Positions 1,874-55,959 of a DNA stretch of 57,150 nucleotides are shown here, piece after piece. The DNA is taken from positions 1-57,150 of the forward strand of contig JADGKB010000093.1 of assembly GCA_027604185.1 (NCBI GenBank). The letters run 5' to 3'. The notes beneath the pieces are model-generated. The model was not told where the DNA came from and made no database searches. It saw only the letters and a list, made by a program, of their open reading frames with translations. The DNA is from Boothiomyces macroporosus (lineage: Eukaryota > Chytridiomycota > Chytridiomycetes > Rhizophydiales > Terramycetaceae). The first letter of the stretch is position 1, and the number at the start of each line of letters is the position of its first letter. Position numbers and translations under genes: made by a program.

Positions 1874-4800
1874 TTATTTAGAATAGTAATAGTTTTTCGC
1901 GAGCTCGCGCAATAACTGCGAATTCGCTGGCCCTGATGCATCAGCCAATTCTGAAAATATAGAGCCTGGAGTATTCAACAGAATATGTGGAGCATCAAAT
2001 TCCTTTAGTACACCTTGATCTAACACCAGTACTCTGTCAAATTCAGCAATAGTGTTTAATCTATGGGCAATGCTGATAATAGTAGTTTCGGCAAAGTGTT
2101 CCTTGATTGCTTTTTGAATGAGTTCATCAGAGTCTCCATCCACACTTGAAGTTGCTTCATCCATCACCATGAATTTAGGTTTCTTCAAAATGGCCCTTGC
2201 TAGACAAATCAACTGTCTTTGTCCAACAGACAGGTTTTCTCCATTCAAGGTAACTTTGGCGTCCAATTTATCTTCAAAATCACCCACAAATGATTTCAAG
2301 CCTGCATATTCCAACACTTTCCATAATTCTTCATCGTCAAAAGTGCCAGTGTAGTCCAAATTTGATCTAAAGGTACCCTCAAACAGTATTGGCTCTTGAG
2401 GAATCATTTGCAGCCTGGAACGCAGAGTGTTGAGCCCAATCTTTGAAATGTCTTGATCATCAATCAGAATTTGTCCTTTGCTGGCTTCAATGATTCTAAA
2501 GAACGCAGATACCAGTGTAGATTTTCCACTACCAGTTCGACCAACAACACCAATCTTCTCTCCCGGTTTGACAGTAAACGACAAATTTTTGATCACTGGA
2601 TAATCAGGTCGAGCTGGATATCGAAGTTCAAGACCTGAAACTTTGAGTTCTCCTTTGGTTGGCCACTGTTCAGGCCTTGGATCTTTATCAGTAGTAAATG
2701 CGGCTTCAGAAGCAAGTTTGAATCGGTAGTGATGCAATCTTTCAACGCTATTCAACTCTGATTCAATATTTCCAACACTAGTCAAGAAAAAGTTTATACT
2801 TGCAGACATTCTGGAAGCAAATGATAAACCTAACCCAATAGAAGCAGCGAGTGAAACTGAAAAGTTTTTGCTATATCCTCCAATAATTGCAAGGATCAGT
2901 GTGATGACAGATGAAAGCATTGAGATTCTCCAGGCAAACCAAACGCCAGCAGAACGGAAAATGTAGTTACTTGCAGTGTATTTATCAGTGAGGGCTCTTT
3001 GTTTGGCGATAAAATCGCCCTGAACGTTGTAAGCGACAATTGTAGATGTCCCAGCGAGAGATTCAGTAATGTGAGAGTCTAGTGGTGAGCGTCTATTAGA
3101 ATTGATTCTCTTTAGCTCCCTGTTATTTGGTTGATAAACAGCGAAAATCAAGTAGAAAACTATAGCCATTCCCACAAAAGCAACTATTGTTAATCAAATA
3201 TTACAGATCAAGTAGTATGAAGCTTGGCAAACCATGACAACAGCAACCAATACTTGGGTAAATGACAGGAGAGTAGAGAGCAATACTGAAATAACACCAA
3301 TATCTAATGATTGAACATCAGCAGACATACGGTTGATGATTCTACCGATTGGATTTCTATCAAAAAAGTCCATTGGCGCATGATACAGAGATTCCATAGC
3401 TCCATCATGATATCTGATACTCGCGTAAATTGACATGAAAATTAACGCCCAGAATAAGGAAGCTACATTAATTATAGATTACTGTTAGCTACAGCATAGA
3501 TACCGCCAAAGATTGTGTAAATGCGCAAATAGTTATTTGTATCCCCTGTAGAATCTTGAGTCCACTTTGATAGCCATATTGGGAGAAAGATTTGGATTCC
3601 TAGAGACAGTATATAAAGAACAGCTAAAACTGAAATCATGGACAAGGACAAGTTCTTTAAATATGTCCAGTAGACTTCAAATTTGATCCCTCCGTCATTC
3701 TTTTCTTCTTCAGTGATAAACTCTTCTCCTTTTTCAATTTCTTCCTTTTTTTTCTCTTTCTCTTTTTCCTTTTCATCCTTCTTTTCCACTTCTTTGTCGA
3801 ATCTGTAAGCTTCCAGCATCTTTGACAGAATGCCGTCTTTCTTGTTGTTCAGTTCTGTAAATGTACCAAACTCGACCATGTTTCCTTGCTCTAAAACGAT
3901 AATTTCATCCACTTCTTGAAGGTAGTGTAGCTGATGAGTGGCTAATAGAACTGTTTTATCGCCCAAATACTCTTTGATGGCCTTTGAAAATACTAGTCTT
4001 CCAACTTGAGCATCCAAGGCAGCAATTGGATCATCCAAAAGGTAAATATCTGCATCAGCATATAAACTTCTAGCAAGAGAAACACGAGCTTTTTGACCAC
4101 CAGACAGATTGACACCATTTTCTCCAATTTCAGTCTTGATTCCGTCTGCAAGCATCTTCAAATCACTTTCAAGCCCACTAACAGCGACAACACGATCTAA
4201 TTTGCTTTGATTCAAAGGCAGGTTGAGCAAAATGTTCTTTTCGATGCTTCCAGTAAGAATCCATGGGATTTGAGCGCAATATGCAATCTTGCCGTTGATT
4301 GAATATTCCCCGCCAATATGAACAGATTCTCCAATCAATCCAGAAAATAGTGAGCTTTTACCACTACCGATTGAGCCAACAACACCAATTAATTTACCGC
4401 GCTTAATTTCCAAGTTGATTTCCTTCATATGGAAAGCTTCAGAGGAGGTCGTACTAGCTTCATCCGAATCCTTTTTTTCGTCGTCTTTCTTTTTGGATTC
4501 TTTCTCCCTTTCTTTATTGGCATCTTCCCATCTCCAGGTGACGTTGTTCAAGACAATGGCAGGCTTTGATAGATCAACTGTTTCTGATAATTTGGAATCT
4601 TTGGGCTCATATTCTTCAGCAATCAAGAATTCTCCAATTCTTTCAAAAGAAACTTTTCCAGTAATGACGTTAGATATCAATTCTTGGATAGTGTTGATTG
4701 GTTCCACAATACCGGAAATATAATTCAATGCCGGAAAGATGATTGCTGGAGACATGGTGTTCCCGTAACTAGCATATACAGCAAAGATGGCGACTGAAAT

Positions 4801-5790
4801 TATCGTAGGTGCAATATCAGCTAGTCCTTGAACACCTCCAAGCACTATAGCTACAAGACGGATACTCTCGATCTGGGCTTTGCGAGCATCATCAATCTTT
4901 TTTCTGAAAAAGTCTTCCATTGCTTGGAATTTGACAATCTTGATTCCATACAACATTTCTCTCAAGATTCCAATTCTTTTATCAGCTCCAGTGAACCTAA
5001 TGTAAGATTAAAATTACCATCCTGTGAATCCTTTGGCTGCAAATGGAGAAGTAGCCAAGGCAATCACTCCAATTCCAACAAAAACACCAATTCCAGACCA
5101 AATTGATTTCCCAACAAGCTCAGCCAAAAAGTAAATGGAAAGGATAATTTGCAGAGGTAGTAAAATAATGAATGGCAGGAAAAACAGCACAGTGACAACA
5201 TTACCTGCATCCTGATTCACCATATTAAGGATTTTGCCTTCATTGAATTGGATCTTTGATTTTGCAGATAATTTCAAGCTCTTTTCGTAAATAGCCCCAA
5301 TCACGATCGAATGAGCAATTTGAACAACTCTTCTAAATATAGTCTGTTGCAAGTTTCCAAACAGGGCTTCAAATGCCTGGAACCCAAATACAATAAATGC
5401 TAGTGCAATTCCGTTATCAACCCAGTACGACCCTGTAAAAGTTGGATCTACATAATTCAGCAACTGTTGAAGGGCCTTTGGGGTATAGAGACCCAAAAAT
5501 ACTGAAGCAGTAGCAGATACAGCAACACCAAGTAGTGGCCACATTAATATCGAAAGTAACGTCCAGAAAAAATTTGGTGGTTTCACAGTAGCAGGAGATT
5601 CTCGATGCTTTGTTAAATTGTCCCAAAACACTTGAAACTTTACTAATATTGCATCTGATTTATCGTAATCAGCCAGTTCATACAGATCGCCGTCTGCTAG
5701 TGGAGTTTTTCTTCCTTTCAGTAATAATGGAGTAAGCCATCCTAATGTAATATAATTCAACGGGTTAGTTTTAATTTGAACGGTAGACAT
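1874..5790 (-). CDS. ABCC/MRP-type ABC transporter
   Basis: A full ABC exporter of 1284 residues after removal of three introns at 4997-5017 (21 nt), 3463-3482 (20 nt) and 3184-3204 (21 nt). Order: short cytosolic N-terminus, TMD1, NBD1 with Walker A GSIGSGKSS, signature LSGGQ and Walker B LLDDP, a Lys/Glu-rich linker, TMD2, then NBD2 with Walker A GRTGSGKST, signature LSVGQ and VMDEATSSVD. The degenerate first Walker B (D in place of the catalytic E) is typical of the ABCC family, which exports glutathione conjugates and other organic anions from cytosol to vacuole or outside. Splicing restores the conserved family stretch DKRIGILREMLYGIK across intron 1. The TMD0 of long MRPs is absent. The exact substrate cannot be told. 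Confidence 0.93.
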
Positions 5791-8383: not shown

Positions 8384-11057
8384 CTAAAGTTGCGGCCATT
8401 CGATAGTGTCAGCTTTCAGTTGGATCCATTTGGCCATTTTGCATGGCTTGCCATCATCTACTACCCACAGTTGGTAATAAAGAGGAATGGCAATCTCACT
8501 GGACTTTGGTGACTGCACATCCAAAGTATAACTTGTACCATCAGCAACTACCGACACGATATTCAACACATAGTGCGAATTGCCCATGTGGTTGTTGTGA
8601 GTAATGAAACCTGGGTTGATCAAACTGACTGATAGGTTATTAGTGTTACCGGAAGGAATGCTAACGGTGAGAGAGTAAGTTGTATTGTATTCCCATTGAG
8701 TTTCGGCAGAGAGAATCTGTGGTGGAGTGCGTCCATCCAGCAAGTATGGCGGAGTAAACATTTCCAGCCTTCGTTCGTTTTCGTGGATGGTGGTCGTTGG
8801 GTCGTCGTTCGAGTCTTGGTTTGGGGTTGATCCCGATACAATGACTCTGCCATCCAACGCCAGCATGGCTTCCGAGTGGTACAGGCGCTGGATGGGCGAT
8901 TTTTGCAGAACGGTGAATCTCTGGTTCAATGGAGCGTGCGGGTTGTACAGCACTGGGTTCAGTGCCGCCTTGCTCTGCATCCCAAACCCGGCCTGTCCCA
9001 TAGTCGCTCCGTTAATCAGCAGGAGCGTCTGGTCCGGAAGAGACACCAAATCACCCAGCACCCGGGGAATCGGCATCTTTTCGACTAACCATGTAGCGTT
9101 TTCTGCTTGGGACGGAGTAGTAGTGATGCATGTGTCCAGGGCATTCACTCCGTCAGACCCTCCGCAGATCAAGATCGACACTGGCGGTACGTTGTTGTTT
9201 GCATCGGCTGCCACTGGAAGCATGGCCGATGTGCCGGAGAACGGATAGCTTCGGTATTCCTTCTTTCCAGACTGCGACGGAACATTGGCACCGCTTGCAA
9301 ATGCGACAAAGGTGTCTGGATCGTACAGACGTGACTGGTATCCTGCAAACAGCCACACAAAAGGCTTTGGCTGGAATTCGTCGGCTGGAATGTAGTACAC
9401 GAACGGATAAAAGTTGTGGCCGATAGTCTGTGCCAGGAACGGAACGTTCACTATTGGGAGCTTGCCAGGGTTTGGCAGGATTTCGACAGTCGGCTCGTTC
9501 ACGCCGTTGAGCGAAGACGGAGCACCACCGACGGCCCACACTTTTCCAGACGGGAGGAGAACAGCAGACGGATCTACAGTTAGCTAGCACTTACACCAGC
9601 GGGCCTTTTCAAGAGCCATCACTTTGGCGTTTTGTTTCCAGTCGCCATTGACCGGCAAGTAGCGCACCCCCTTCAGCGATGGATCACCAACCCACCCTCC
9701 AATATTCAGCAGAGTGCCGTCTGGCAACAGCACACCGCCGCTGCAAAAGATGTCAGAGTAGGCGTACAGCGGCTTGAGCTGGAAAGTAGCCATGTCCATA
9801 GTGTACGAGTGGTACGTGGAGTAGTAGCCCCAGGAGATTCTCTCAAGGATTACTGCATTGTTGGTGTTTGGCATTGGTGACAATCCCAGCGGAGCAACAG
9901 GCAGAGTGGTCGCAACATCGTATCTTCCAGGGTTCTTGGCAGTGACATGATACTCTACCGGCTGGTCAGAGCCAGGAGTGCCAAACCACTTGTTTTTGGT
10001 GGTTGTGTAGCAAGGGATTCCTTTTTGTCCTTTTGGTGGTGGATCCCAGCAGCATCCTTTTGAAAAGCAGGACTGGTAATCAGTTCCTTTGCAGTCGACC
10101 CGTGCGTCTGTTACAAATGGGGTAGACGGACAGCCAGCAGGCTGTGTATAGTTATTCACTAGTGGTTGTACTTGAAAGTCAGTAGACCATAATGTAGTAT
10201 TGTTGCTGTCTGCCCATATCAATTTTCCGTTTTCTTGCAAAGTAAGAGTGTATCCACTGGAGATTGTAGTGGGAACCGGATTTGATGTCCACATAGCTAC
10301 AGGAGATGCACCATCATTTCTATAGACAACTAGTTGTCCGTTAGATTGAGCAGCCATAAAACATTTATGACCGTCACCTAACCAAGTATTAGTTCCAAAC
10401 ACAGATTGGAATGTTGGATCATTCATGTAAAGCATTAGTTTACAGTCGTGCTGCATGACCAGCTTGAATTCTTGCGTTGGGGAAGCCAAGAAACAGCCCG
10501 ATCCATTGTTACAATCGCTGTTCAAAGTAGTTCCTGACTGCATCACGGTTAAAAAGTAGACTGATGGTTGAGTATAAGTATACAGAGGCTTAACAGGAAT
10601 ACTCGACCAAACAATTTTCCCAGTATCTGTTTTGTACACTAAATTTCCGTCATCTTGCAGGCTCAAAGTATAACTGTTTGCTTGAACTGCTGGGGAGCCA
10701 TTAAGCGATTGAATTTTCACAATGGTTCCGTTATTGTTTCTGTAAAACACCAATTGCCCGTCTGTTTGGGCTGCCAAAAAGCAACTATGGTCGCCTTGCC
10801 AAGTTTTCGACTTCCAAATCACACTTTTTAAATTGCCAGTGTAAATCATCATCATGCAATCGTGTTGCATGACAGCCTATTGTCAGACGTCAAATTACTA
10901 GATAATTCTTTGAAGGTGAGCTTAATTGACAACCAAATGAAGTGCAATCATTGTTTAATGTTTGGCCACTCTGAAGCTGAGAATTAAAGTTGCTGGAGGG
11001 AGAAGTTACTGTATATAGCGAAGCTGACACTGCTGTAATCAGCGCAGATATTTTCAT
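8384..11057 (-). CDS. secreted glyoxal-oxidase-like copper radical oxidase with lectin-like and trefoil modules
   Basis: 876 residues after removal of introns at 10877-10898 (22 nt) and 9574-9594 (21 nt). The ATG at 11057 starts a signal peptide (MKISALITAVSASLYTV). Next come two to three repeats resembling bulb-type lectin units (MQHDCMMMIY, DGQLVFYRN, DDGNLVY), then a P-type trefoil domain (RVDCKGTDYQSCFSKGCCWD), then a galactose-oxidase/glyoxal-oxidase domain of family AA5. Candidate copper-radical residues are all present: Cys in DIFCSGG, Tyr in RWYPSAVLL (restored by splicing), Tyr-His in RLYHSEAM and His in FITHNNHMG. The enzyme should oxidise aldehydes or alcohols outside the cell and produce hydrogen peroxide. 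A trefoil plus lectin-like front end on an AA5 enzyme suggests glycan targeting (inference). Confidence 0.9.
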
Positions 11058-12616: not shown

Positions 12617-13284
12617 TTAAACATCCCAGGAGCCAAACTTTTCCGATCTGCGATCCTTGATTGCTGACCAAGATAAACTGCTGGCAGTGAATAGTAACAA
12701 ACAAGAAGCTCCTCCAAAGTACATTCCTAATCCATATCGCACATTTGAATCAGCACTAACGCTTCCTAATCTGTCATCGTAGCCACTTGCCAAATCCGTC
12801 CAGTTTCTGTAAAACAACCATGTTCCTAATCCAAAAGCGACTGCTTCTAATAAAGACCCAGCGAATGCAAACACGGTAGCTGGGAGTGGATTTCTACGTC
12901 TTAATAGAACCAAAGAAATTAAAGAAAATACCAATCCCAAAGCAAACAATCCAGAGACCATTACTTCATCCTTTGGCAACACTACGTTAGATTCTTCATA
13001 CATCTTCCAACTGGCCCAACATTCTTTAATCCAGAGTCAAACACGGTGCTACACTCTTGTTTTTGAATTTGGGCATAGTCCTTGTCAATCGAGAAAAAGT
13101 ATGGATTAATTTTATCGTTTTTGCAAGCGCCGTATATTCCAACATTTGTGGTAGAAGTAGTCAACCAAGAAAATGATTTGAATGGAGGAACGGTGGTACC
13201 GCCTCCACCAAGAGAACAAATACCTGCAAGAATTCCTATTAACAAAAAGAATCTAGACCATCCAGAAAGCACGGCGTCTCCCAT
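12617..13284 (-). CDS. four-TM membrane protein, SUR7/claudin-like topology
   Basis: 215 residues after removal of a 20-nt intron at 12982-13001, which contains TCTAACGTAG at its 3' end. One hydrophobic segment lies at residues ~9-27, followed by a ~75-residue extracytoplasmic loop (with a W-S-type patch and two cysteines), then three further segments (VMVSGLFALGLVFSLISLVL; a second around VFAFAGSLLEAVAFG; a third around GGASCLLLFTASSL). This layout is that of the PMP22/claudin/SUR7 superfamily, which in fungi includes SUR7 and PalI. I do not recognise a specific orthologue. Confidence 0.7.
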
Positions 13285-14808: not shown

Positions 14809-15869
14809 TTATTGGCGAGATTCTTGCCTGTCTTTTTCTTCAAATATTTTACTAAATTGAGGCCCGATATTTGCAAGAATATCACCGGTAACCATCGATC
14901 TCCCTTTCTGTTCAAATGTAGTTTGAGCGCTCTCTCTCAAGAGTCTGCTCGCAGCGTATCCACAAAAATATTCAATGTAAGAGTCATTTTCAAATGGCCC
15001 GTTTCTGGTTAACAACTATTTACATTTGGCGATATTTTATACCCCATGAAATAAATGTAGCAAGCATTCCTGTTAGTAAATCGCCCTGGCCACCACACCG
15101 TCTTGGGGTACCTTTGATGGCACTGATAATAACTTTTCAGTAATAAGCTACCTTTCTCTCCGCAAGCGATTATATCCATTTCTCCTTTTGAAATGATTGT
15201 AACTCCACCCAGTAGCTTGCTCATTATTTTAGCTGCAGCGTCTCTCTCTAATTTATCAGAGATTGACTATCATTAAAAGTGCTATACCAGTGCTTGTTTT
15301 AATCGATTGAACTCATTGAAATTTGGAGTCAAGACACAATTCTTGTATTCATCCAATAAATCTGGATTTTGCTGAACCAAATACAATCCATCTGCATCAA
15401 TAATAATTGGTTTAGATATCCTCTTTGCGCGTTTGATAATCTGTGTTGCTGTATTTAGAATCACTGAATCTCTCGACAATCCTGGTCCTGGTATTAGTGA
15501 TCAATTGCCGATAATCAGTACATCCAAGCGATCCAGCAGCTTTTCAATTTTAAAGACACATTCTTCAGTCTTGTCCCTTAGATTGCCATCAACGTCCTTT
15601 TCTGTAAACAAGTACGGGTGAACAATCAGCTCTGGCGAATAGCTTTTTATAACGGGTGCGGCATCTCTAACACAGAATACATGTGCTAAATCTGCTCCTG
15701 TTCGTAATGCGGCCCTAACTTGAGAATCATTTTACATTGCGGCGAAATACGGTGCTCCTGTATACTCGATACTACCCCCTATTACACCGATGCGACCGGC
15801 TTCGCCTTTAGTAGCTTTATACGTCTCTGAAGTAGGAATGAATCTTTTGATTTGTCTTACAAGCGGCAT
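14809..15869 (-). CDS. NAXD: ATP-dependent (S)-NAD(P)H-hydrate dehydratase
   Basis: 319 residues after removal of five introns: 15715-15735 (21 nt), 15488-15508 (21 nt, GC-AG), 15267-15287 (21 nt), 15133-15151 (19 nt) and 15005-15023 (19 nt). The enzyme repairs hydrated NADH and NADPH using ATP and works with the epimerase NAXE. Splicing restores the conserved family blocks in order: [67 protein letters not shown] and [15 protein letters not shown] with the catalytic Asp. Length and order match the ribokinase-like NAXD family. The C-terminus [13 protein letters not shown] is also conserved. Five introns in under 1.1 kb is dense. Confidence 0.95.
15488..15508 (-). other. NAXD: 21-nt GC-AG intron in NAXD
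   Basis: The intron starts GCAATT, contains ACTAAT near its 3' end and stops at CCAG. Removing it gives the strictly conserved V/I-I-G-P-G-L motif of the family. No GT donor would restore the frame here. Confidence 0.85.
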
Positions 15870-15928: not shown

Positions 15929-16791
15929 TTAAATTTCTAAATCATCAGCAGTCTCGGCTTTTACTCGCTTCACATTCTTGGCGTGTTGCTATATTAGTAA
16001 CCGCTTACCTGGTCTTCAGTTCTTTGATTCCTGTCATACCAGTTGACCATCCATAATGCATTCAAGAGAAACATGACGATTGGCAAATTTACATACACAG
16101 TGTTCAAAGCACTAAGGTAGGATTTAGGCATGACCCAGTAGCAAATTGAATAGGCAATCTCGCAGGCAAAGTATCCGCCAAATGTCATCACTTCAAAGTC
16201 AAGGAATTTGCGAACAAACTCTGCCATCTTTACCGCGCCAGTTTTGTAGTGTTCACGAATGTAGAGCGCAAACACAGCAATCAGGCTAGATTCATAAATA
16301 AGTGAAATCGCGTGTTCTTGGATAATGTATGAAGTATCCATTGTAGTAACACAGGACCCTACGTTATTGACTACCCCAGATAACGCGCCATTGATGTTTG
16401 CTTCGCTAGCAAAGAGTGAAACAATTCGGACACAGTACATGAAATATAAAAAGTAGAGCTTTGGACCTATTGCCGCTGTGATTTGGACGATTTTAAACAG
16501 TTGATGATAGTCATAGGCGATATAGTTGATGTAAATCAGCCCATAAGTAATTTTCTTACCAGCGGTGCAAAATGTTTGGTCATTGTAGGTCAATATCAAG
16601 TAGTAAGAGAGGGCAAAGCAAATCATCATCGGGAAGAGGGCAGAGAGTGCGGTATACCTAAAAGTAGGTCTGAGTTTGTTCCAATGGAAGATCATCACAA
16701 ACAAATTGGCAAGCTGAATGGCTGAAAATATCGAATACATTACTAGAATGACAATCAACAGGTTTGAAAAGGACGAGATCACTTGGGCCAT
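15929..16791 (-). CDS. 7TM receptor-like membrane protein
   Basis: 280 residues with a 20-nt intron at 15989-16008, only ~20 codons before the stop. The intron matches the local consensus (GTAAGC ... ACTAATATAG). Without splicing the frame ends nine nucleotides into the intron. Seven hydrophobic segments are visible: LLIVILVMYSIFSAIQLANL, YTALSALFPMMICFALSYYL, ITYGLIYINYIAYDY, LYFLYFMYCVRIVSLF, AISLIYESSLIAVFALYI, MTFGGYFACEIAYSICYW and LPIVMFLLNALWMVNW. The tail is short, basic and hydrophilic. The specific family is not recognised. Confidence 0.72.
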
Positions 16792-17379: not shown

Positions 17380-19086
17380 ATGATAATCCCTACGTTATAT
17401 ACTCAACCCAATATCCAGCAAAACAGATTCAAACAATTAAAAGAATTGCCAAAATTACTAAAAAAAAACGAAGATGAGGGTAATGATGTCAAAATGACCG
17501 ATCTCGAACACGTCTTGGAAATTTTGTCGCCAGTAAAAACACCTGCATCTGCATTGAATGAAGATAAAGAGATTCTCTTATCCAATGGGTTTGCTATTGG
17601 AAAAGTTATCGGCGAAGGGTCGTTTAGTCTCGTTCGCGAAGGGATTCACTTGAAAACTAACCGCAGAGTAAATTCGATTAATCGACAGGTATCCATCAAA
17701 GTACTCAAAAAACAAAGCCTGATGCGAAAAGGAAATTCTCCACTGCAAGTCACCAGAGAATTAGTATTGCTTGGCCAGTTATTCCACGAAAATATATGTC
17801 CGATATTTGAAGTCGTCAATTCAGTCAACGATATTTACATTGTAATGCAGTATCAATCTGGCGGTGATTTCTACAAGTACATACTAGATAATACAAAAAT
17901 ATCTGAACCAGAATCAGTACTATTTTTCAGACAAATACTGTCGGGGATTAATTACTGCCATTCCAAGAATATTGTTCACCGAGATTTGAAACCAGAAAAC
18001 AGTAGATTTGATTTAATTTAGTATTGGTTAGTAAAGACAAGACTTTGCTGATCTGTGATTTCGGGTTTGCAAATATCATTCAGTCTGACACCTACCAAGA
18101 AGAGTTTTGCGGCAGCCCAGAATACGCTGCACCAGGTACAGTATTCTTAACGATTGAAATGATTGCCAGAAAAAAGTATGTTGGTCCAGAAGTGGATATC
18201 TGGTCTCTTGGAGTTATTCTGTTTGTAATGCTGACTGGTACAATGCCGTTCGGAGAGCAAGTGCAATCCAAGTTATTCATGTCCATCATGACGGCAAAAT
18301 ATTCAGTTCCCTCTCACGTATCGGCAGGTAAAGCTTCCTAACCCAGATGCAAAATCGTTAATATCCAATATTCTAAAACCAGACCCAACAAAGCGATTCA
18401 GCTTGGAAGATATAAAATCAGATAAATGGGTCAACCCACAATCATTGGCACCATTCGAGTTTCAATTAGCGGATTCATTCTCTTTACAACCACGAATCAG
18501 AGCAAAGTTGCTAGAGTTTGGGTATACTGAGCAAGAAATCAATGAATACGAAAATGAAAAGAGTCTATCGCCGATTAAAACTGCGCACTACCTACTTCAA
18601 GAAGCATTCACTCCAAGGACTCTTCCCAAATATAATTTAAATGTACAGCCAAGCAGGTACAGCTTTACAAGGCCGTTGAAACCCCCAAAACAAAAGCAAA
18701 CATTGTTAAATAGGATAAAACAAGAAATAGTAGAGAAAATTGAGCCCTACAACCCAGCTGGTAGACCGCCAGTTTGTGTTACGGTTGAACATGAATCCTC
18801 GCTGAAAAACACACATTCAAGGATTCTAAAAAACGTTATTCAACAAGGAGGAAAGATTATTAATTTCAATGAAGATGTAGTAAACGAAATGTCGGCTTCA
18901 ATCCCATTCAAAACAGCTGACCCTTTTGTCAAAGATGAGGAATTACCAATCGATTATATCGATATTCGTATTGTTACTAGGAGGTGCGGACTGCATTGGC
19001 AATCAACATTTTACCTCCTAAACAAGTACGACAACCAAGCGATATTTGAAGAATTCGATGATATTGTAATGACTTTGCTTCAATAA
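17380..19086 (+). CDS. serine/threonine protein kinase (CAMK/SNF1-like)
   Basis: 548 residues with introns at 18002-18021 (20 nt), 18136-18156 (21 nt, apparent GT-TG) and 18328-18346 (19 nt). The ATG at 17380 is used, as the frame further upstream starts with TTG. The kinase domain runs from about residue 70: glycine loop IGEGSFSLVREG, VSIKVLKK with the ATP-binding Lys, IVHRDLKPEN catalytic loop, ICDFGFAN (DFG), CGSPEYAAPE and DIWSLGVILFVMLTG. This pattern is that of the CAMK-like/AMPK-related group. The ~180-residue C-terminus ends in a compact block (RRCGLHWQSTFYLL) that could be a regulatory domain. The activation-loop APE motif depends on removal of the second intron. Confidence 0.88.
18136..18156 (+). 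other. candidate 21-nt GT-TG intron in protein kinase
   Basis: The segment starts GTACAG, contains CTTAAC and ends GATTG. It has intron size and a branch-like element but no AG at the end. If retained it adds seven residues in frame and splits the conserved APE motif of the kinase. If removed, the sequence reads AAPEMIARKKY as expected. No nearby AG gives an open frame. Confidence 0.6.
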
Positions 19087-26574: not shown

Positions 26575-26928
26575 ATGGGCAAACTTAACCTTGAAAAAAC
26601 CCCAAAATCAGGAATCGCTGCAGGTTTAAACAAAGGACACATTGTTACAGTTAAACAACCAGTTCAAAAACCAGTAAACAAGAAAGGAGCTCTCTCAAAG
26701 AGAACCAAATTCGTCCGTGACTTGGTTCGTGAAGTCGTTGGATTTGCTCCATATGAAAAGAGAGTTATGGAATTGTTGAAGAACAGCAAGGATAAGCGTG
26801 CTCGTAAATTGGCAAAGAAGAGAGTAATTATTGGTTAATTTTAGTTGGGAACTTTGAGACGTGCAAAGCGCAAGATTGAAGATTTGGGTAACGTTATTGC
26901 TGAATCTCGTCGTGCTGGTGCCCATTAA
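26575..26928 (+). CDS. RPL36: 60S ribosomal protein eL36
   Basis: 110 residues with one 21-nt intron at 26824-26844. The sequence contains the family motifs [21 protein letters not shown] (two parts), [20 protein letters not shown] and, after splicing, [20 protein letters not shown]. It is a component of the large cytosolic ribosomal subunit. Codon use is strongly biased toward AAG/CGT-type codons compared with neighbours, as expected of a highly expressed gene. Confidence 0.97.
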
Positions 26929-37891: not shown

Positions 37892-37927
37892 TTGAAAAGA
37901 AAATAAAATTGTATGAATTGAATATCT

Positions 37928-38220
37928 ATGAGTCTGAGTTTCCCTTCAAAGCTGAATGAATTGTTTTGGGCTGGACTCTATGGAATATGTTAATTTACTA
38001 CTACTCCATAGACGCGTGGGAATATTGGTTCAGTTCAAAAAGTTTCAAAGACGAGTATCAGAGGAGGGCTTTGGATGACAAACCACTGAATAGACTTTAC
38101 GGAAAAGAAGGCTCTCTTGAGTACTGGTTTGAGCTTGTAATGTCCCAAGCTATGAGTAGAAATCATTCGGATCCCTTGAAAAATGACTTTATCCAAACAG
38201 CAAAGAATAGCAGCAAATAG
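37928..38220 (+). CDS. small hypothetical protein
   Basis: 89 residues when a 23-nt intron (37989-38011, starting GTTAAT, ending CCATAG) is removed. The join gives LNELFWAGLYGIYAWEYWF. It is an aromatic-rich hydrophilic protein with no clear TM segment or signal peptide. No family recognised. It lies between tyrosinases 2 and 3 on the same strand and its start is only 37 bp past the tyrosinase 2 stop. The intron and clean frame support a real gene. Confidence 0.6.
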
Positions 38221-38409
38221 GGGTTATTTGTCACCGGAATAAAAGGTTCTTTATTAGGATGCTTCCAAAGCGCTTATATTACCTTTTCCTTGACGGTTAA
38301 AGTAGAATTCATGGTCTATCGAAATGAAAGGTGCTCTGATCGTAACTCCAAGCCACATCCCAAAGTAGAAACGAGGAATGAAACTCCTTCCATAATTATA
38401 GACTTTAGA

Positions 38410-40123: not shown

Positions 40124-40892
40124 TTACTTGCTTCTTCTTGCTGTCCACTTGTAAACCGGCAACCCTTTCTTATCAACCCCAATCTTTCTACGCTGCCCTT
40201 TGCCCTAAAATCAGTAAAACTTACCATCAGTTTCTTTTGCGTTTCCATCTCCATTCGAGCAGTATTCAACTTGTCCTCTCGCTCAATTCGCTGCTCCATC
40301 TCTAAAGCCCGCTTTTCACGCTGCTTGACGATATCCTAGGATTAATGAATAGTACAGTCAAATCTTGATCAGCAATCAAGACCGATTCCAAATCCTTTTT
40401 GCGTATTCTATTAACTGTACGGTTCTTTAATGCAGGCACAGTGTCAAAATGCTCTGCTACATCGAAATTCTTGATTTCTTGCTCACTGTCAACAAATATG
40501 GTATGTTGCGGTTTTGCCGATTCGTCAATGATATGTATTCCCTCCTTTAGTTTTTCAATTTTCTTTTTGTTTATGGATTGTTGGTACTGGACATAGTTTA
40601 AATCCTGAGTTTTCATTAATTGCTGCGTTTCATGATCGAATTTTTCGTTGCGCTCCAGGATATGCTGGCCCTTGTTTGTCTTTGAATTTATCATTCCGAA
40701 ATAGAATTCGTCTGGGTTTCTGAAAGCTGCTTTCTGTTTGAGCTTTAGAAGAGCGTCTTCTTTGCGGTGGTAATCTCTGGCTCTGAGGACATAGTCTTTT
40801 TTCTTTTCTAATAGACCCAAATGCTGTCGGGCTTGTGGTTGTGAACGCTCCTTGTGTGTCCTCCTTGGTGCTGCTTTTCTCAGTGAAGACAT
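40124..40892 (-). CDS. UTP11: U3 snoRNP component UTP11
   Basis: 242 residues after removal of introns at 40336-40355 and 40205-40224 (20 nt each). The N-terminus (MSSLRKAAPRRTHKERSQPQ) and the LGLLEKKKDYVLRARDYHRK block, then FRNPDEFYFGMINSKT, are diagnostic of Utp11, an 18S rRNA processing factor of the nucleolar small-subunit processome. The spliced end (KLMGKGQRRKI ... VYKWTARRSK) matches the family C-terminus. It is divergent from tyrosinase 3 in function and not co-oriented. Confidence 0.96.
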
Positions 40893-45431: not shown

Positions 45432-46230
45432 TTAATTCTCGCTGGGTGCGTAGTCAGCCCTACTCGTGTACTCTGTTTCTTTTCTTTCTATTTCAGCAAA
45501 CATTCCTCTCTTCATTAGTATCTTTTGCGCATCTTCAGATAATACGACTGAAGATGGAGAGTATACTGGTTGAACAGTACTAGGAGTGTAATCTTTTGGT
45601 GGTGGTGGATACTCTTGTCTATAAGTTGGTCTAACAGCTGATGAAGGCGGAGCTATTGTTGATGATGCTGATGTTCCTGGTGTATAGGCTAATGGCGCTA
45701 CTTGACTGATTGACCCATTGTGGCTATAATCATCACTAGATTTTAAAGCATTCAGTTCCGCTATTCGTTTACTCTCCAATCTCTTTTGATTCGAAATATA
45801 CAACACTGAACTAAGTACACCAATGAAGGCTAATAATCCCCCAAGTATTAGACCAGCTACAAGGAATTTGGTGCCAAGAGATTGCTCACCAGGTACTTTT
45901 CTCGTATCCTGTGAATTTGTAGTTGTAACTGAATCGCCAGTAGCAGGACTTGAATTTACAACTGACTGCTGTGGTGGAGCACTTGTTTGGTTGTTACCAG
46001 ACAGTATATCGTTTTGACACAAGCCGAATCCAGTTTGACATCCAACACCGCAGAAATCAATGGAATTGCCACTAAATTAATGTAAAGTACCAATAGCCAC
46101 TTCTGGAACAACATTGTCCTTGTTGGCACGCAGCAGCATTTCCAGCTGTTGCTGATTGGGATCCGCATATACCACCGGATGGTGCGATTGATAGGGCAAT
46201 GATAAAAGTTGGTAGCAGGAATAGCTTCAT
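45432..46230 (-). CDS. chitin-binding (CBM18) single-pass membrane protein
   Basis: 259 residues with a 19-nt intron at 46072-46090, which cuts through the chitin-binding domain. After splicing the module reads CGSQ ... CQQGQCCSRSGYCGNSIDFC ... GCQTG, with the aromatic and eight-cysteine pattern of CBM18/hevein domains. An N-terminal signal peptide (MKLFLLPTFIIALSIA), a Ser/Thr linker and one TM helix (FLVAGLILGGLLAFIGVLSSV) follow. The ~130-residue cytosolic tail is Pro/Ser-rich and ends ADYAPSEN. A cell-surface chitin receptor or wall-attachment protein is inferred. The start at 46230 gives the signal peptide; the frame continues upstream without ATG support. Confidence 0.85.
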
Positions 46231-48176: not shown

Positions 48177-48201
48177 AGCAACCAATTATAATTACTTGGA
48201 G

Positions 48202-48489: not shown

Positions 48490-48575
48490 TATGCAATAGG
48501 AAAAGCCACGAGTGGTATCCTAATAGATCTCGTATCAAGGAACAAGTGAAATTGCTCGTCCGAAAATTTTGAGAA

Positions 48576-50117
48576 ATGCCAAGAGAGATCATCACATTAC
48601 AAGTTGGACAGTGTGGGAATCAAAGTAATAATTGCTAATAAAAGTTGGACAAGAATTCTGGACCAGACTATGCGCTGAACATGGAATCAGACCAGATGGG
48701 ATACTGCAGGATTTCGCTACTGAGGGAGGAGACAGAAAAGATGTTTTCTTTTATCAGGTAGCTGTCGCTAATACAGGCTGATGATGCTCATTATATTCCC
48801 AGAGCGATCTTGGTGGACTTGGAACCTAGAGTCATAAATAATATCCTCCAATCTCCGTATTCCAACTTGTTCAATCCAGAAAATATTTCATTATCCAAAG
48901 ACGGAGGTGGTGCTGGTAATAACTGGGCATTTGGTTATGCTAGAGGAGAACGAATCCAGGAAGAAATTATTGAAATGATTGATCGCGAAGCGGACGGATC
49001 AGATTCACTAGAAGTAGCAATATCTTAATACAGGGATTTATGATGCTTCACTCGATTGCTGGTGGTACTGGTAGTGGTTTAGGGTCGTATTTATTGGAAG
49101 CTATAGCTGATCGCTACCCAAAGAAACTAACTCAAACGTATTCTGTGTTTCCAAACAGTATTGAAACCAGTGATGTTGTTGTGCAGCCTTACAACTCTAT
49201 TCTCACTTTGAAACGATTAACTGAAAATGCTGACTCTGTAGTAGTACTGGATAATGCTGCTTTATACAGGATTGTAACTGACTTGTTGCACATTGAAACA
49301 CCAACATTTGCACACACAAATCAGCTAGTGTCGACTGTTATGAGTGCAAGCACTACAACATTGCGATATCCAGGATATATGAACAATGATCTTGTTGGTT
49401 TAATAGCATCCCTAATCCCTACTCCAAGATGCCACTTTTTACAAACCAGCTACACTCCATTTACAGGTGAAAATATTGATCTAGTATTTTTATTTAACCT
49501 AGTCGAAAAGCGTTAGAAAAACCTCAGTATTAGACGTGATGCGAAGATTGCTCCAACCTAAAAACAAGATGGTATCTACTGCATCTTCAAACAAGAATTG
49601 CTATATTTCAATCTTGAATATTATCCAAGGGGAAGTAGATCCAACAGAAGTAAATTTAATTAACATAGGTTCACAAGTCTCTGCTAAGAATAAGGGAAAG
49701 GAGGTTGGCTCAGTTTATTCCTTGGGGACCAGCTTCTATCCAAGTGGCATTGTCAAAGAAAAGCCCATATGTGCAGACTCCACATCGCGTTTCTGGCTTG
49801 ATGTTGGCCAACAATACAAGCATATCATCGGTAATTCTCGCTAATAGCAGCTATTCAAACGAACTTGTGATCAATTTGATAAACTTCGCAAGAGAAACGC
49901 TTTCATAGAACAATATAAAAAAGAGTCAAGCAGTCTTGATGCTTTAGAAGAATTGCAGGATTCAAGAGAAGTTGTTCAAAACCTAATCAATGAATACGTT
50001 GCATGTGAGTCTCCAGACTACCTCAACTGGGTAACTATATATTGATTTTAGGGATTGTCCAACAATAACCGTCCAACAAAGAGCACATCAGTTGACTATA
50101 CTACTCGCCTTGACTAA
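48576..50117 (+). CDS. TUBG: gamma-tubulin
   Basis: 467 residues after removal of seven introns: 48625-48644 (20), 48758-48776 (19), 49014-49033 (20), 49484-49502 (19), 49650-49668 (19), 49831-49850 (20) and 50031-50051 (21). The start [21 protein letters not shown] is diagnostic of gamma-tubulin. The GTP-binding loop GGTGSGLGS, the block [29 protein letters not shown] and [14 protein letters not shown] are all restored by splicing. Gamma-tubulin nucleates microtubules at spindle poles and basal bodies. The C-terminal tail is short and basic. In the sixth intron an AG giving 17 nt is skipped for CAG at 20 nt. Confidence 0.98.
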
Positions 50118-50153
50118 TAAACGCTTATATTTGATTACAACTCAAATTCTATA

Positions 50154-51309
50154 TTAATAGTATAATTCGTCAAAAGTAACTAACTGCGGTAATACAGTTC
50201 TCATTCGTGGTTTGTCTTTTGGCTGATCAAAACCGCTCTTCCTAAACGGTCTATATTAACAAGGCGTACCTGTTATCTAAAGGAGTGTAAGGCTCATTAC
50301 AAAGCATACTGGGCATCTCTGGCCAGGCTTGGTACCTTTTATCATATACATCCAGCTTTTGTTTCACTACATTAATTGAAAAATACATCGAAGCGCAATC
50401 GCTTGTCTGATTTCCTCCTTTGTGGCTTCTTGCTCACTGTAGAAATCAGTCATCACTCTTAGCGTAGGTCGTAAAGGCCTTTTCAACACCAGATTCAACC
50501 GATATTTGGGCTAAATTAGTCAAAAGTACTAGAAAAGGGCCTTGGCATTTCTTTTCTGCTTCTTTTGGTGAGTGTGGAACGATTTCTTTAGGTTTGATCC
50601 TAATCTTTCTTGGGTTTTTGCCAATCTTTGCCAAACACTCTTGGATACCGGAATTGTCTTTTAATATTGAGGGTAAAAAGTTGTTTACTAGTGGAACTCC
50701 TGGGACATTCTTTGTGCCGAGCAAGTGGTGGTGGTTGCGAGCATACTTGTCGATTTCTTCCAGTCGTTTTTCTTCTTCAATAATATGCCGTTCTTCCATT
50801 ATCTGCCCACTTCTTTCTTGTACAAACACTCGCATCTTATCCATCTACATTAGTTTAATCTACTCTTTTCATGATTTGCTGAATGTACTCTTGTCTGTTG
50901 TAGAAATCAAATACAAACTTTCGCGAACGGTATCCTCGCCATCTGGAGTTAATATAGAGTACATTTTTTGTATTTGGATGGCATACTTGCCGAATGTAGA
51001 TTCCCGTATCTGTCTTTCTCTTTCAATTTCCATTATTTTTTGCCATTTCCGGAATAAATAGTCTCTGTATATGAACTGTATCTTGCGAGCTACCATTCTT
51101 TGTCAATAACAATTACTCTAATTTGGTCTTTCTACTTCGCACTATTGCACCCCTCCATATTCTTTGAATTTGGATTGCCGCACGGTACTCTATTTCCTTC
51201 CTGGATTCCGCTTCCCTAGGATCAGATATACAAACTTTAGTCTTTTAAAGTATTCCCCAGCGATATCTGCTTTGTAAGTGATTGCTAATCGAACAAATGA
51301 CAGTGGCAT
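50154..51309 (-). CDS. SPATA17: SPATA17-like IQ-motif ciliary protein
   Basis: 339 residues after removal of seven introns: 51216-51235 (20), 51098-51116 (19), 50943-50962 (20), 50845-50863 (19), 50511-50529 (19), 50367-50386 (20) and 50251-50269 (19). The protein has at least two IQ motifs for calmodulin (IQIQRIWRGAIVRSRK and IQIQKIWRGYRSRKF), then a helical region, YARNHHHLLGTKNVPGV and KKCQGPF, then RPTLRV. These elements occur in the same order in animal SPATA17, a ciliary/flagellar axoneme protein. This supports a flagellated stage. The gene is convergent with gamma-tubulin, 36 bp apart. Confidence 0.85.
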
Positions 51310-51373
51310 TTAGGTAAAGTGTCAATACGTCAACTTCGGAGAATAAACATACATTTATTGCAAATTATTATTA

Positions 51374-54159
51374 CTATGTTTTAACTTCAGTCTTTCGTCT
51401 TACATCCTGATATCAAGTAAATTTACCTTTGCTAGAATGGCTGCCAATAACTGGGTCGATGGCTCGTTAGAGTCAATTAGCTGATAGTCAATTTTGATGT
51501 TTGGCTTTGCTTCTTTGACTTGTTTCTCCATATGAGCAGCAACTTTCTTTGCTCTAGCATATCGCATATCCAAAGTCTTTAGCTTTTCAATATTTTCTTG
51601 CTCTGCTTCTGCAAGCTTTTTGTTTTCCTCTTGCGTTTGTTTAAGTGTCGTCTGAATCGAAGCCACTTTTGCCGTAATCAAACTTAGCATATATTTACCT
51701 CTGCCAAATGCTCTTTAAGAGTACTGTTTTCATTAATCAAGAATTTCTTTTCGTTTGTTAAACTATCGATTCGTAACCGCCAAGCATCAAAATCTGGTAG
51801 CTCTTTGACAATCTTTTCCTTCTTTTTGACAGCACTTTGACGTGTATCTGCAGTTCCACTTTGAATAGATTCTCTTGCCTGTCCCAACTTCAAAAACTGC
51901 TTTTCAATATTCTCGACCCTAGAGATTAATAATGAATACGTAGACTTTTTCTGATCAATTTTTTCTACTTTTCTTGCTTTGAGTTTAAAATCAAAGAATT
52001 TTCTTTCTGTTTCTTCTGCTCGTCTTTTCAGCGTGAACACTTCACGCTGTAAATCATATCTCTCTGATTTTAGCTTGTCAATCATTTCTTTGTAAACCTG
52101 GACATCTTTTTCAACGTGGAGAAGTGCCCTGTCGTGATCGGACTTTTCTTGACGCAAAATGCTCCTATCCTGACTAAGTCTTCTGATTTCATTGCGGAGC
52201 ATTTGCTTGGTAGTAATATTATTTTGGTTTGATTCCTCTAGTTTCAATTGAGCCTCGTGTAGCTGGTGTTCAAGTTTTTTCTATATAAATGACCAATTAC
52301 ATTTTTCTCTTGCAATTCAGCAATGACAGGTTGAATTTTTTTGAGCTCATTATAAAGCTTTGCAGCTTCAAGTTTATGTTCATTAGATTCTGTTTTGATT
52401 TCATTCAATCCTTTGTCTGTTTTGATCTTGACACATTCAGATATTCCAAGTTTTGTCATCAAGAGTTCGTTTTCGGCTTTGAGCTTCTGGTATCTTGCTT
52501 GCTCACTAACTAGTTCCTTTTGGGACTGCAGCCATAACGTTTGCACACGATCTTTTTCAATGTTGCTGCTCTTTAAATCATCTCGAAGCTCTGCAATTGC
52601 CAAATGAAAAGTTTCCTTGTAATCCTCTTCCTTTTCTGCTGCTTTTGCCCTAAAAAGATTCAAGTCATGCTCTTTTCGTTCAAGCGTGTACACCATTTGC
52701 TTTGCCTCCTCGTTGAGTTTCGAGTATTGCTCATTCAACTCTTCATGCTGTTCTTTCAATGAGTGGAACGAGTTTTCAAGAATTTTAAGCTCATCTTCTT
52801 TGGCAGTAAGTGCCATCCTCAACTTTGCATTATCATTTCTTAATTCTAGATTCTTGGCATCTTCGTTTCTTTGGATATTTTTGATTTCCTTTTGGGCATT
52901 AATCTGGACTGATTCTTCTTGTTTAAATGCTTTTTCCTATAATGAAACTATAATTACCACTGGAATATAAAAGCGAAGTTTCTCTTCAAACTCGGCATTC
53001 ATTCGGTCAATCTTGGATTTGAGAGATGCAACTGTTTCCACCCCTCTCTCTAAATCATCATCCTTCTTCTGGTCCAGTTTTTTGTAAGCCTCAAGTTCTC
53101 TATTTAGCATATCTTGAATTTGCTTTGATTGGTTTAAAGCGAGTGTAGTCTCATTGTAATTCTGATGTACTGCTTCAAGCGAAGATTGAAGATTGGCAAT
53201 TTGTCGTTTCAGCTCCTCGCATTCCTGATCTTTTTTAGCCAAGTTGGCTGATAGTTCACTAGTTTCCTTCTTGTACACTTTGTTTACATTTTGTGATTCG
53301 ATCAAGGTAGTCTTTCTCTTTTCCAAGTTATTCGCCAGCTGTTGAATCGATTTGTCTCTGTTCGACATGGCACTCATCGCTTCCTCCCATTGCTTTTCAA
53401 TTGCTTGTTTGGCAGCGTTTACCTCGCGAACTTCTTTATGTAAAATATTGATAGTGTGCTGTGCAGCAAGAACTTCTGATTGTTGCTGAGCAAATGCACC
53501 CTCTGCAGCTTTACGTGCATTAAACAAAGTTTCATTCCGCTCTCTTTCTTCAATGAGCTTGTTCTCTGTCTCTTTGTACTTTTGTTCAACAATTGACATT
53601 TCTTTTTGAAGCTTTGTTGATATTCGCTTTTGAATCTTTACCTCGGAAGTGTAATTGCTAGTGATTTCTTGCATCTGCAATAGTTTGGTTTGTGAGGCAT
53701 CCAGCTGGCGCTTCACTTCTTTGTTCTCCTGTTGCAAGTTGTAAATTTCTCTTTGATATTCTTGCAGAGTTTTTTCAGAAGACTGTATTTCATGCTTCAA
53801 TATTATTTGCTCAGCTTCACTCTTTTCTACTATAGAGCGACTAAGTTAGTAGAATATTACGATTTGGCCAGTTGTTTATTCAAGATTCCCATTTCCTTTC
53901 TACTTCTGTACAATTCAATCCCAGTATTTGCTTTTTCCTCCATAGTTCGTTTCAATAGAACTTGTGTTTCATTGAATTTAGAAGCAAATTCTTCCAGCTG
54001 GGCATCAGTAGAAGCCAAAATTGTTTCTTGAACACGGAGTAGGTGATTTTGGTACACATCCTCGTCCTCGATTGCCGGAAACGTTAAATTCTCTTCTCCT
54101 GGAATGACTGCTCCTTCCTTATGAGCAGCTGGTAGTGGTGGCAGTGAATTGTTTAGCAT
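51374..54159 (-). CDS. long coiled-coil protein, axonemal CCDC40-like
   Basis: 894 residues after removal of introns at 53841-53860 (20), 52937-52957 (21), 52281-52300 (20), 51679-51698 (20, apparent GT-TG) and 51407-51426 (20). After a ~35-residue N-terminus the whole protein is coiled coil, rich in Lys, Glu and Gln. The region GIELYRSRKEMGILNKQL and the later AIEKQWEEAMSAMSNRDKSI resemble in spacing and content two blocks of CCDC40, part of the 96-nm axonemal ruler with CCDC39. Coiled coils align easily by chance, so the family call is tentative. The last intron lies 10 codons before the stop. The neighbours gamma-tubulin and SPATA17 support an axonemal or basal-body role. Confidence 0.68.
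51679..51698 (-). other. candidate 20-nt GT-TG intron in coiled-coil gene
   Basis: Starts GTAAATATATGC, contains GCTAAG where the branch element normally lies, and ends TTTG. Removal joins HLAE to ITAKVASIQTTLKQ in frame. The upstream frame otherwise stops within the intron. A 47-nt GT-AG alternative is also in frame but lacks a branch-like element near its end. Confidence 0.6.
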
Positions 54160-54251
54160 TGCTAATTAAAAGCGGAGATTTTTTGACATTTTTGACGTGA
54201 TGTCATCTAGCATTCAAATTTAATAGTATGAACTCAATTACAGTAATATAT

Positions 54252-55959
54252 TTATGTGAAAATATTATTCAGATCTACAGTTTTGATATAGTATTCAATA
54301 TTTGCTCTGTTTGAATCGCAGTTTTCCATGAAAGACTTGCTCATCATTTCTTGAACTTTTTCTTTGAACTTTTTGATTTCTTTTCCAGTTAGAGAAGGAT
54401 AGTGCTTTTTAATCAACCCTCCGATCGAAACTTGCTCTTTCTTGTGATTCTTTTCCTCTTTGAGCCCAATAGTTTTCTTTACAACCAGTTGACCGCGCAA
54501 ATTGATTGGACTGATTTCTTTCCATTCAAATTCGGTAGGTTTTGATTCCAGGTGAGTATGTACAGTAATATGCATGTCTGGGAGTACAGTTTTTACTTTG
54601 CACGAGATGGCTTGGCTGGTCATTGAGACATGAGTTGCCTCTAGTTCAATTGGTGCTCCTTCCTCTCCAAATAAATTAATGGCTTCTAAATCAGCCTTTC
54701 CATAACATATCGTCATTCGCTCACATTTGGTGGTCCATGTTTCAGGACATTTAAATTCAGAAATGAGTTTTTGTTTTGAACTATCATCCAACACAACCGC
54801 AGTATAATGTACTTCTTCGGTAAGTTCAATCAATTTTCTAAACATACTTATACTGATTCTTCTCGGAGGAGGGCAGTCACTATTGTCGACGACACAACTG
54901 CTGCCCATTTTACTCGTCAACTTCTCTGTAGTATAGCGGCTCTTTCTAGAATTCCTGTAATCTTCGTTTACCTGACTCTTTCGATCAATTTCCCCTTCTA
55001 AAGAATCAAATCTGGTATGTCGCGTTTCTGGATTTGATTCTCCTTCAATTTTGCTGGTGCTTTCAATAGAGTCCTTACTTTCCACTGGGTCTTCTGTAGT
55101 TGTGATATCTTCTCCAAAGCTGACTTTTACTTCTTCCTTAATAGACAGGCTACTCAGGGTATTTCTACTTAGGCTTTTTTGACTTTGAGTACGCCTATAG
55201 TTGTTTATCCTGTCATTGCAAATTTGAATCAAATCGAAAACCAGCTCCTTTTCCAGATCCAAGGGCATGTGCAATTCTTCATGCTTTGGGATTATAACAT
55301 GATGAACATTATTTGGCAAGGACTGGCTATCAAGGAATAGTTTGAACTTATGGACGTGTCCTTTCCTATCGTCGTATAAATCAACAAATTCGATCTGATA
55401 GGTTGAAAAAATTGTTTTCAATACATCAAATTTGTAGTCCAGAGTTGTTGGGAATTGACAGTCGATGTTTTCTTTGAGGAAATAGAAATTAAAATGTAAT
55501 CCAACGGACTGACACAACTGAACCAGTCTATCATGAAATAAATCCTTTCGCCTCCCAGTCTACAGTCAAGTAAAGGGTACCATCATGATAACCAGGTAGT
55601 CTTTGGACTGTAGTTTTCTCTTTGCTTCTTCCACTATAGACAAATTCCACCATTCCTCGCCTGCATTAGCATTCATCAACCTGGTACAAGAGGCAAATAT
55701 GGATGGTTAAGAGTCCGTTTATCCATAAACCATTGACAGTCTGAAATTATTTTCCCTGCATTAATGACTCAAAACCTAAGAGTCTCGACGACCAGATTTC
55801 TGGATTTGGCAGTGGGGATTTGAATAGCGTTGAATCAAAGTCAAACACTGCCAATTTTTTTACATTCTTCTTGATGTAGCTTGTGATTTGCTCCCTATAA
55901 TTGGAATTCATTTCTTTTGAAATTTTTCTCAAAATTTTTAAGCACTCAACTTGAGTCAT
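54252..55959 (-). CDS. HAD + 2H-phosphoesterase-like RNA-repair ('Swiss army knife') protein
   Basis: 548 residues with introns at 55756-55775 (20), 55661-55680 (20) and 55560-55580 (21). The first two start GTT. An N-terminal HAD domain has the nucleophile motif AVFDFDSTLF, then LPNPEIW, EEWWN and LVIMMTGRRKDLF, the pattern of HAD domains annotated as Swiss-Army-Knife RNA repair. A Ser/Thr-rich linker of ~100 residues follows. The C-terminal part has two H-x-T motifs (VHYTAVVL and MHITVHT), as in 2H phosphoesterases/LigT-like domains, plus a Lys-rich helical tail. Together they suggest end-healing of RNA (phosphatase plus cyclic phosphodiesterase); this role is inferred. Confidence 0.78.

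Follow-up and report, generated by a model that had tools for sequence, protein, structure and literature searches.

Introns comparable in length to those described here are known from the ciliate Stentor coeruleus, in which introns of 15 to 16 nucleotides (nt) occur throughout the genome (PMC9505925), from some other ciliates, from chlorarachniophyte nucleomorphs (18 to 21 nt), and from mikrocytids (16 to 17 nt; PMC10245619). Here, we analyze introns of 19 to 23 nt, close to the lower limit of intron length in any known organism and called micro-introns below, in a 57,150-nt stretch of Boothiomyces macroporosus DNA, contig JADGKB010000093.1 (the window, by which the whole stretch is meant), one of 216 contigs (C93) in an assembly of 15.2 Mb. 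The host is indeed a fungus, as a preliminary description of this DNA had stated: it is placed within Chytridiomycota, Rhizophydiales, Terramycetaceae, and the gamma-tubulin of the window shows 99% identity, across 96% of its length, to that of Boothiomyces sp. JEL0866. Micro-introns are confirmed in this chytrid, with their splicing deduced from sequence and homology, and the reading that we consider very probable is that its nuclear genes carry U2-type spliceosomal introns that have been reduced to little beyond a composite signal close to the minimum. No report of a fungus with introns of about 20 nt as the norm was found in the open-licence literature, in line with what the preliminary description had supposed.

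Length and anatomy of the introns

The sample comprised 257 kb, namely the window and 20 ten-kb stretches, each at the start of a separate contig. As a simple tally of all GT..AG pairs that link long open frames showed no more than a weak length peak, a gene model was adopted that uses a three-periodic coding score, reads from ATG to stop on both strands, and allows GT..AG introns of 10 to 400 nt; intron counts refer to introns of coding regions, as distinct from those of untranslated regions. At its first stage, the model was run without a motif term and without a length preference. Later models add learned donor and acceptor motifs and then a learned length distribution, with GT..AG ends imposed throughout. 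The swapped dinucleotides GA..TG, TG..GA, and AG..GT served in the same gene model as controls for the intron ends.

With GT..AG ends, neither motif nor length being favored, 75 of 240 called introns were 19 to 23 nt long, against 8 of 224 for GA..TG, 6 of 229 for TG..GA, and 14 of 213 for AG..GT. Under a stricter intron penalty, the corresponding counts were 46 of 122 and, in the controls, 1 of 111, 4 of 112, and 11 of 113. Among the four end pairs tried, the peak at 19 to 23 nt arises with GT..AG ends only. When the learned motif was included and no length term was used, the last round gave 184 calls, with 24, 52, 24, 16, and 5 at 19, 20, 21, 22, and 23 nt, respectively, and none at 17, 18, or 24 to 30 nt, so that the edges of the distribution are sharp; the remainder were scattered (two of 13 nt and one each of 16, 31, and 38 nt) or, in 58 cases, at least 40 nt long. 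Once learned lengths were added, 236 of 241 introns in the sample fell at 19 to 23 nt (59, 100, 50, 22, and 5), and when longer introns were given 10% prior weight, 232 of 239 did so, together with six longer ones and one of 16 nt. In-frame stops are more frequent in introns of 21 nt (40 of 50) than in those of 19, 20, and 22 nt (105 of 181), an excess that was set aside as evidence, since stop-free introns whose length is a multiple of three escape the model.

The genome-wide occurrence claimed in the preliminary description is borne out by the wider survey of the assembly, in which micro-introns rather than introns of ordinary length prevail: the 185 modelled introns outside the window are spread over all 20 of the sampled loci, and micro-introns dominate the listed matches of two pattern scans of the whole genome. 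For each scan, the first 100 places were listed, which fall on contigs C1 to C5 and C1 to C11, respectively, and a few of which are repeated copies. The pattern GTAATN{1,30}CTAAYN{1,6}TAG has 856 matches in the genome, against 432 for the reversed pattern, and 80 of the first 100 listed are 19 to 23 nt long, although the pattern permits 15 to 49 nt (35 lengths). For GTAAGTN{5,35}TAAYN{1,3}TAG, which permits 19 to 51 nt (33 lengths), 86 of the first 100 listed lie within that range, and it is the lengths of these listed matches, not the totals, that lend support. In the 112 better-scoring models, 221 introns fall within 165.5 kb of coding sequence, a density of 1.3 per kb, against a mean of 3.93 in two other chytrids (PMC8476143), and extrapolation from 236 introns per 257 kb suggests some 14,000 in the assembly. 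As a side observation, the same predicted genes occur twice in the assembly, on C49 and C100 (loci L032 and L033), and pattern matches on C2 recur about 42.6 kb apart, which suggests haplotigs or recent duplication.

The same calls could alternatively reflect a mixed population, in which frequent micro-introns accompany a substantial hidden class of ordinary introns of 40 to 400 nt. Such a class would accommodate the 58 calls of at least 40 nt, and credible exceptions to the micro-intron length do occur outside the window: SF1 has a homology-supported intron of 24 nt, where reading through puts a stop inside a conserved domain, and Isy1 has an intron of 46 nt that agrees with the public protein P0121 and is implied by the protein of Boothiomyces sp. 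JEL0838. However, motif-free calls of at least 24 nt show no excess with GT..AG ends (151 of 240; for the swapped ends GA..TG, TG..GA, and AG..GT, 199 of 224, 206 of 229, and 184 of 213, respectively), the longer calls have weaker acceptor motifs, albeit by a motif itself learned on short introns, and they recede to the six noted above at 10% prior weight. Within the window, calls of at least 38 nt fall from 17 in the motif model without a length term to 2 after length is modelled, and in gamma-tubulin and TUP1 the long calls engulf conserved exons, which are restored once micro-introns take the place of the long call. It is accordingly improbable that ordinary introns form a substantial hidden class, while the earlier statement that all introns are 19 to 23 nt long is better worded as nearly all, given the modelled fractions on one side and the SF1 and Isy1 introns on the other.

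The anatomy of the micro-introns is uniform in outline, with a donor GTA-NNN, a spacer of 4 to 5 nt, a branch site YTNAY, and 5 to 6 nt to the exon, ending in NAG. In the set of 236 introns, GTAATT is the most frequent donor (38), ahead of GTATTT (16) and GTACTT (15), and then GTAAAT (14), GTAATA (14), and GTAAGT (13), and G at position +5 is found in about a sixth. The branch pentamer is TTAAT, CTAAT, CTAAC, or TTAAC in 148, the inferred branch A lies at intron nt 14 to 17 in 212, and 5 or 6 nt follow it in 202. The acceptors are TAG (171), CAG (39), AAG (23), and GAG (3). In the motif-trained model, 205 of 236 introns have the branch motif at those offsets, against a mean of 32 with shuffled interiors, and decoy GT..AG stretches have it in 487 of 7,725 cases. 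Because the later model had learned the motif, the motif-free calls provide the fairer test: YTNAH at -6 or -7 is present in 38 of 46 and 62 of 75 calls of 19 to 23 nt, where shuffled interiors average 6 and 10, respectively, and a branch motif is present in 17 of 67 and 25 of 151 calls of at least 24 nt. The view that the whole intron is little but a donor joined to a branch and acceptor unit also holds in the larger set, as 4 or 5 nt separate the donor hexamer from the branch motif in 173 of the 202 introns with standard branch position, and a spacer of 3 nt is found in only two of them. Together with the splicing machinery described below, this anatomy gives them the appearance of usual U2-type introns reduced almost to the minimum.

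Junction homology and splicing machinery

Comparison with known proteins indicates that the predicted joins restore conserved sequences. Over residues 1 to 450, spliced gamma-tubulin aligns with a solved gamma-tubulin structure, interrupted by two gaps of 2 residues, one of which lies beside the fourth junction; that junction is gapless against the Batrachochytrium and Globomyces proteins. The gamma-tubulin of Boothiomyces sp. JEL0866 (P0002) has the identical reading at the first six of seven junctions and runs past the last intron, so that public Boothiomyces protein records already hold some micro-intron joins. Identity is 88% to Terramyces sp. JEL0728 and 81% to Batrachochytrium and Globomyces; the list of matches is headed by an odd 683-residue record labelled Camelus ferus, at 73% identity. 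Ribosomal protein eL36 joins without a gap at its junction, and isocitrate dehydrogenase is gapless against yeast IDH1 at its last two junctions, the first lying beyond the alignment. ATG22 covers 478 positions of its Pfam profile (ATG22) with as many residues, and UTP11 matches its PDB counterpart almost end to end, with small gaps beside the 40336 junction. For the TUP1-like protein, PDB Tup1 is among the best matches (a whole-protein match, not one made junction by junction), and the SPATA17-like protein differs from its homologue P0241 at several junctions.

The genome contains U1, U2, and U6 small nuclear RNA (snRNA) genes with canonical pairing sequences. U1 scores 68.8 bits, slightly below the cut-off of 69.5, and has a canonical 5' end, AUACUUACCUG; U6 carries ACAGAGA. 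The branch-recognition sequence of U2, GUGUAGUA, is intact at both of its loci, and the branch sites of the introns are able to pair with GUAGUA. The two U2 genes (C80:60682-60874 and C178:9607-9797) are diverged, being alike over the branch-recognition region and differing further 3'. Fourteen control genomes were silent for U1, U2, and U6 and do not serve as positive controls for these searches.

Six families of spliceosomal proteins were searched for, and five were found; several spliceosome genes themselves bear micro-introns. U2AF65 matches solved structures over its RNA recognition motifs and C-terminal domain, and SF1 has helix-hairpin, KH, and zinc-knuckle domains. Cwc25 is present and contains MGGGDLN, which we take to be its usual start. 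A Methyltransf_10 gene can be read as METTL16-like from its sequence, although the match alone is no proof of METTL16 because the family was matched in 5 of the 14 control genomes also.

The remaining protein, Isy1, is 98% identical to that of Boothiomyces sp. JEL0838 and has a normal body, with the first 30 residues being unlike the usual start. Among the 120 homologues listed of 375, 74 start with MARxxEK, 36 have a seemingly late start, and 10 start otherwise; these ten include named Boothiomyces, Globomyces, Kappamyces, and Gorgonomyces proteins, one unnamed protein, and some that seem truncated or misread. The N-terminus is rebuilt in the Boothiomyces, Kappamyces, and Gorgonomyces proteins and intermediate in Globomyces, and for Batrachochytrium salamandrivorans and Geranomyces the public models open with MLYRFREAQ, as a truncated canonical protein would. 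The usual MARNxEKA start was sought upstream of Isy1 in the Boothiomyces genome itself and was not found. At the start of the gene (locus L031 on C39, about 1259-1300), two 20-nt intron-like units stand 1 nt apart, where the protein of JEL0838 points instead to one gap of about 49 nt. In other species, the Isy1 N-terminus reaches the active site of the spliceosome. The altered N-terminus is a lead because the Isy1 N-terminus of Stentor is reported as non-conserved (PMC9505925), and it is a change in one protein that may be unrelated to micro-introns.

These results also bear on whether the segments are introns at all. They could instead be removed at the DNA level, be bypassed by the ribosome, or be frameshift debris of pseudogenes. 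Stop-bearing insertions of this size resemble internal eliminated sequences, and splicing is known here through sequence and homology. The GT..AG ends, the branch motif at fixed spacing, the canonical pairing sequences of the snRNA genes, the conservation of spliced proteins in essential genes, and the joins shared with a public Boothiomyces protein at six of seven places nevertheless make any such reading very unlikely. Excision by a U12-type or other special class of spliceosome could be suggested by the unusually short and strict branch-to-acceptor distance of 5 to 6 nt and by donors often without +5 G, but it appears very unlikely, as the donor and branch motifs do not resemble the U12 consensus and U2-type snRNAs are present, the snRNAs searched for being U1, U2, and U6.

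Genes of the window

The window contains 51 introns of 19 to 23 nt (16, 21, 11, 2, and 1 by increasing length) in 18 of 33 gene models, with coordinates taken from the gene model with learned motif and lengths (Table 1); with a looser setting, the numbers are 55 introns and 22 of 42 gene models. The preliminary description had counted 65 introns in 24 genes, of which at least 10 to 14 introns are absent from the model set. The ABC transporter intron at 3184..3204 has one exact match in the genome. The NAA35/Mak10 intron at 20560 is replaced by a 118-nt call under a prior kinder to longer introns, and an attempt to fit the 47-nt candidate in the coiled-coil gene as micro-introns failed.

Table 1. 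Predicted introns and gene models of the window; "presumably" marks tentative gene names
Gene	Span	Strand	Introns (length in nt)	Support
ABC transporter, presumably	1874-5790	-	4997..5017 (21), 3463..3482 (20), 3184..3204 (21)	
Glyoxal-oxidase-like, presumably	8384-11057	-	9574..9594 (21), 10877..10898 (22)	
Kind not assigned	12617-13284	-	12982..13001 (20)	
NAD(P)H-hydrate dehydratase, partial		-	15715..15735 (21)	Low-scoring model
Kind not assigned	15929-16629	-	15989..16008 (20)	
Protein kinase, presumably	17380-19086	+	18002..18021 (20), 18328..18346 (19)	
NAA35/Mak10	19371-20860	-	19625-19645 (21), 19752-19770 (19), 19996-20014 (19), 20560-20578 (19), 20789-20808 (20)	Pfam Mak10, TPR_NAA35
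Ankyrin-repeat, presumably	21313-22780	-	21750-21768 (19), 21829-21848 (20), 22128-22146 (19)	
Ribosomal protein eL36		+	26824..26844 (21)	Gapless PDB alignment
NAD-isocitrate dehydrogenase	27777-28939	+	27843-27862 (20), 28076-28094 (19), 28545-28564 (20)	
ATG22	31249-32806	-	31452-31471 (20), 31985-32007 (23)	
Three tandem genes, presumably tyrosinases	34364-39966	+	Intronless	
UTP11	40124-40892	-	40205-40224 (20), 40336-40355 (20)	PDB UTP11
TUP1-like	40962-43278	-	41366-41386 (21), 41859-41879 (21), 42015-42033 (19), 42269-42290 (22), 43165-43184 (20)	
Chitin-binding-like, presumably	45432-46230	-	46072..46090 (19)	
Gamma-tubulin	48576-50117	+	48625-48644 (20), 48758-48776 (19), 49014-49033 (20), 49484-49502 (19), 49650-49668 (19), 49831-49850 (20), 50031-50051 (21)	
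SPATA17-like	50154-51309	-	50251-50269, 50367-50386, 50511-50529, 50845-50863, 50895-50914, 51098-51116, 51216-51235	
Coiled-coil, presumably	51374-54159	-	51407-51426 (20), 52281-52300 (20), 52937-52957 (21), 53841-53860 (20)	
Coiled-coil, presumably; candidate longer intron		-	51652..51698 (47)	Gene-model call
HAD_SAK_1	54252-55676	-	55560..55580 (21)	

Some public models treat such genes differently. P0003 and P0241 (Terramyces JEL0728 and Boothiomyces JEL0866) appear, from the protein records, to skip or read through micro-introns and thereby to lose or garble exons, with, for example, a 49-residue stretch of gamma-tubulin missing. This matters for annotation.

Mechanism and relation to known systems

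Several points weigh against the reading of these segments as shrunken U2-type introns and against the mechanism proposed below. Splicing is deduced from sequence and homology; the counts from the motif-dependent models are not independent of the learned motif and lengths, as the motif-free counts are; the GTAAGT pattern shows a weak excess in its totals (516, against 451 reversed); and rare longer introns exist, such as the 46-nt one of Isy1. Human short introns need RED, and the genome has no RED_N match, in a search for which the control genomes were silent too and offer no positive control. The passing of the donor between snRNAs and the part played by Isy1, both set out next, are proposals.

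For introns of this form, removal by the major spliceosome can be inferred. Donor and branch site almost touch, so that U1 and U2 would probably not be on the intron simultaneously, unlike in human. Human spliceosomes are reported to require a distance of about 50 nt from donor to branch site, and with one test pre-mRNA no assembly took place at 35 nt (PMC6692369). Sequential occupation therefore seems more likely here, with the donor passed from U1 to U6 while U2 takes the branch site; this fungus appears to manage with about 14 nt. The 4-nt spacer would represent a steric floor, and the ceiling of 23 to 24 nt would reflect selection or a bias toward deletions. Since a polypyrimidine tract does not fit in behind the branch point, U2AF65 would need another mode of action, be it at the AG by way of U2AF35, at the U-rich spacer, or in the small set of longer introns, and the acceptor would be chosen as an AG that follows the branch point at a distance of a few nt. 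Accommodation of the tight lariat may involve the altered Isy1 N-terminus. The frequent lack of G at +5, in combination with A at +4 and a METTL16-like gene, would fit a reliance on U6 pairing.

It could further be speculated that a subclade of Rhizophydiales (Boothiomyces, Terramyces, Kappamyces, Gorgonomyces, and perhaps Globomyces, not Batrachochytrium) switched to splicing micro-introns only, with a co-evolved active site and an Isy1 N-terminus rebuilt in parallel to Stentor. The spliceosome would then read the whole intron, about 20 nt long, as one composite site and not as several distinct ones. We consider this extension tentative and rather doubtful as it stands. Boothiomyces strains are available in culture collections and other chytrids are transformable, so that the question of the minimal intron may be testable in a fungus with spliceosomal recognition RNAs of canonical appearance.

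Within the fungi, the likeness is to Cryptococcus neoformans, Malassezia, and microsporidia, whose introns are also reduced in length. Introns of M. globosa average 79 nt (PMC4634964), a mean beneath which a short mode could hide; Malassezia introns are called very short in a review passage that states no number (PMC7426719), and microsporidia generally have few introns (PMC10245619). Outside the fungi, the introns of Paramecium and Nyctotherus are likewise very short but, at about 25 nt, slightly longer than those described here, and those of Trichomonas start from 23 nt but are few and accompanied by a second, longer class (PMC5014332, PMC12316389). Mikrocytid introns resemble ours in being uniform with conserved motifs, but they belong to a parasite with 224 predicted introns in which only 17 to 19 spliceosomal proteins were found (PMC10245619). 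The nucleomorph introns have almost the same length range as in Boothiomyces, but there some 300 genes of a reduced endosymbiont nucleus hold over 800 introns (PMC10245619), as opposed to a fungal genome of 15.2 Mb here.

Stentor remains informative for both its differences and its likeness. Its branch A lies at nt 10 of a 15-nt intron, as opposed to nt 14 to 17 here; it is described as having no strong branch consensus, in contrast to the clear YTNAY in Boothiomyces; and its Cwc25 N-terminus is altered, where ours reads MGGGDLN (PMC9505925). Both systems share genome-wide micro-introns with a tight length range and, in Stentor mostly, GU..AG ends; in Stentor, 5 nt follow the branch A, GUAAUU opens the most abundant intron, U2AF is present, and the recognition sequences of U2 and U6 are conserved alongside a non-conserved Isy1 N-terminus (PMC9505925), a combination close to that found in this chytrid.

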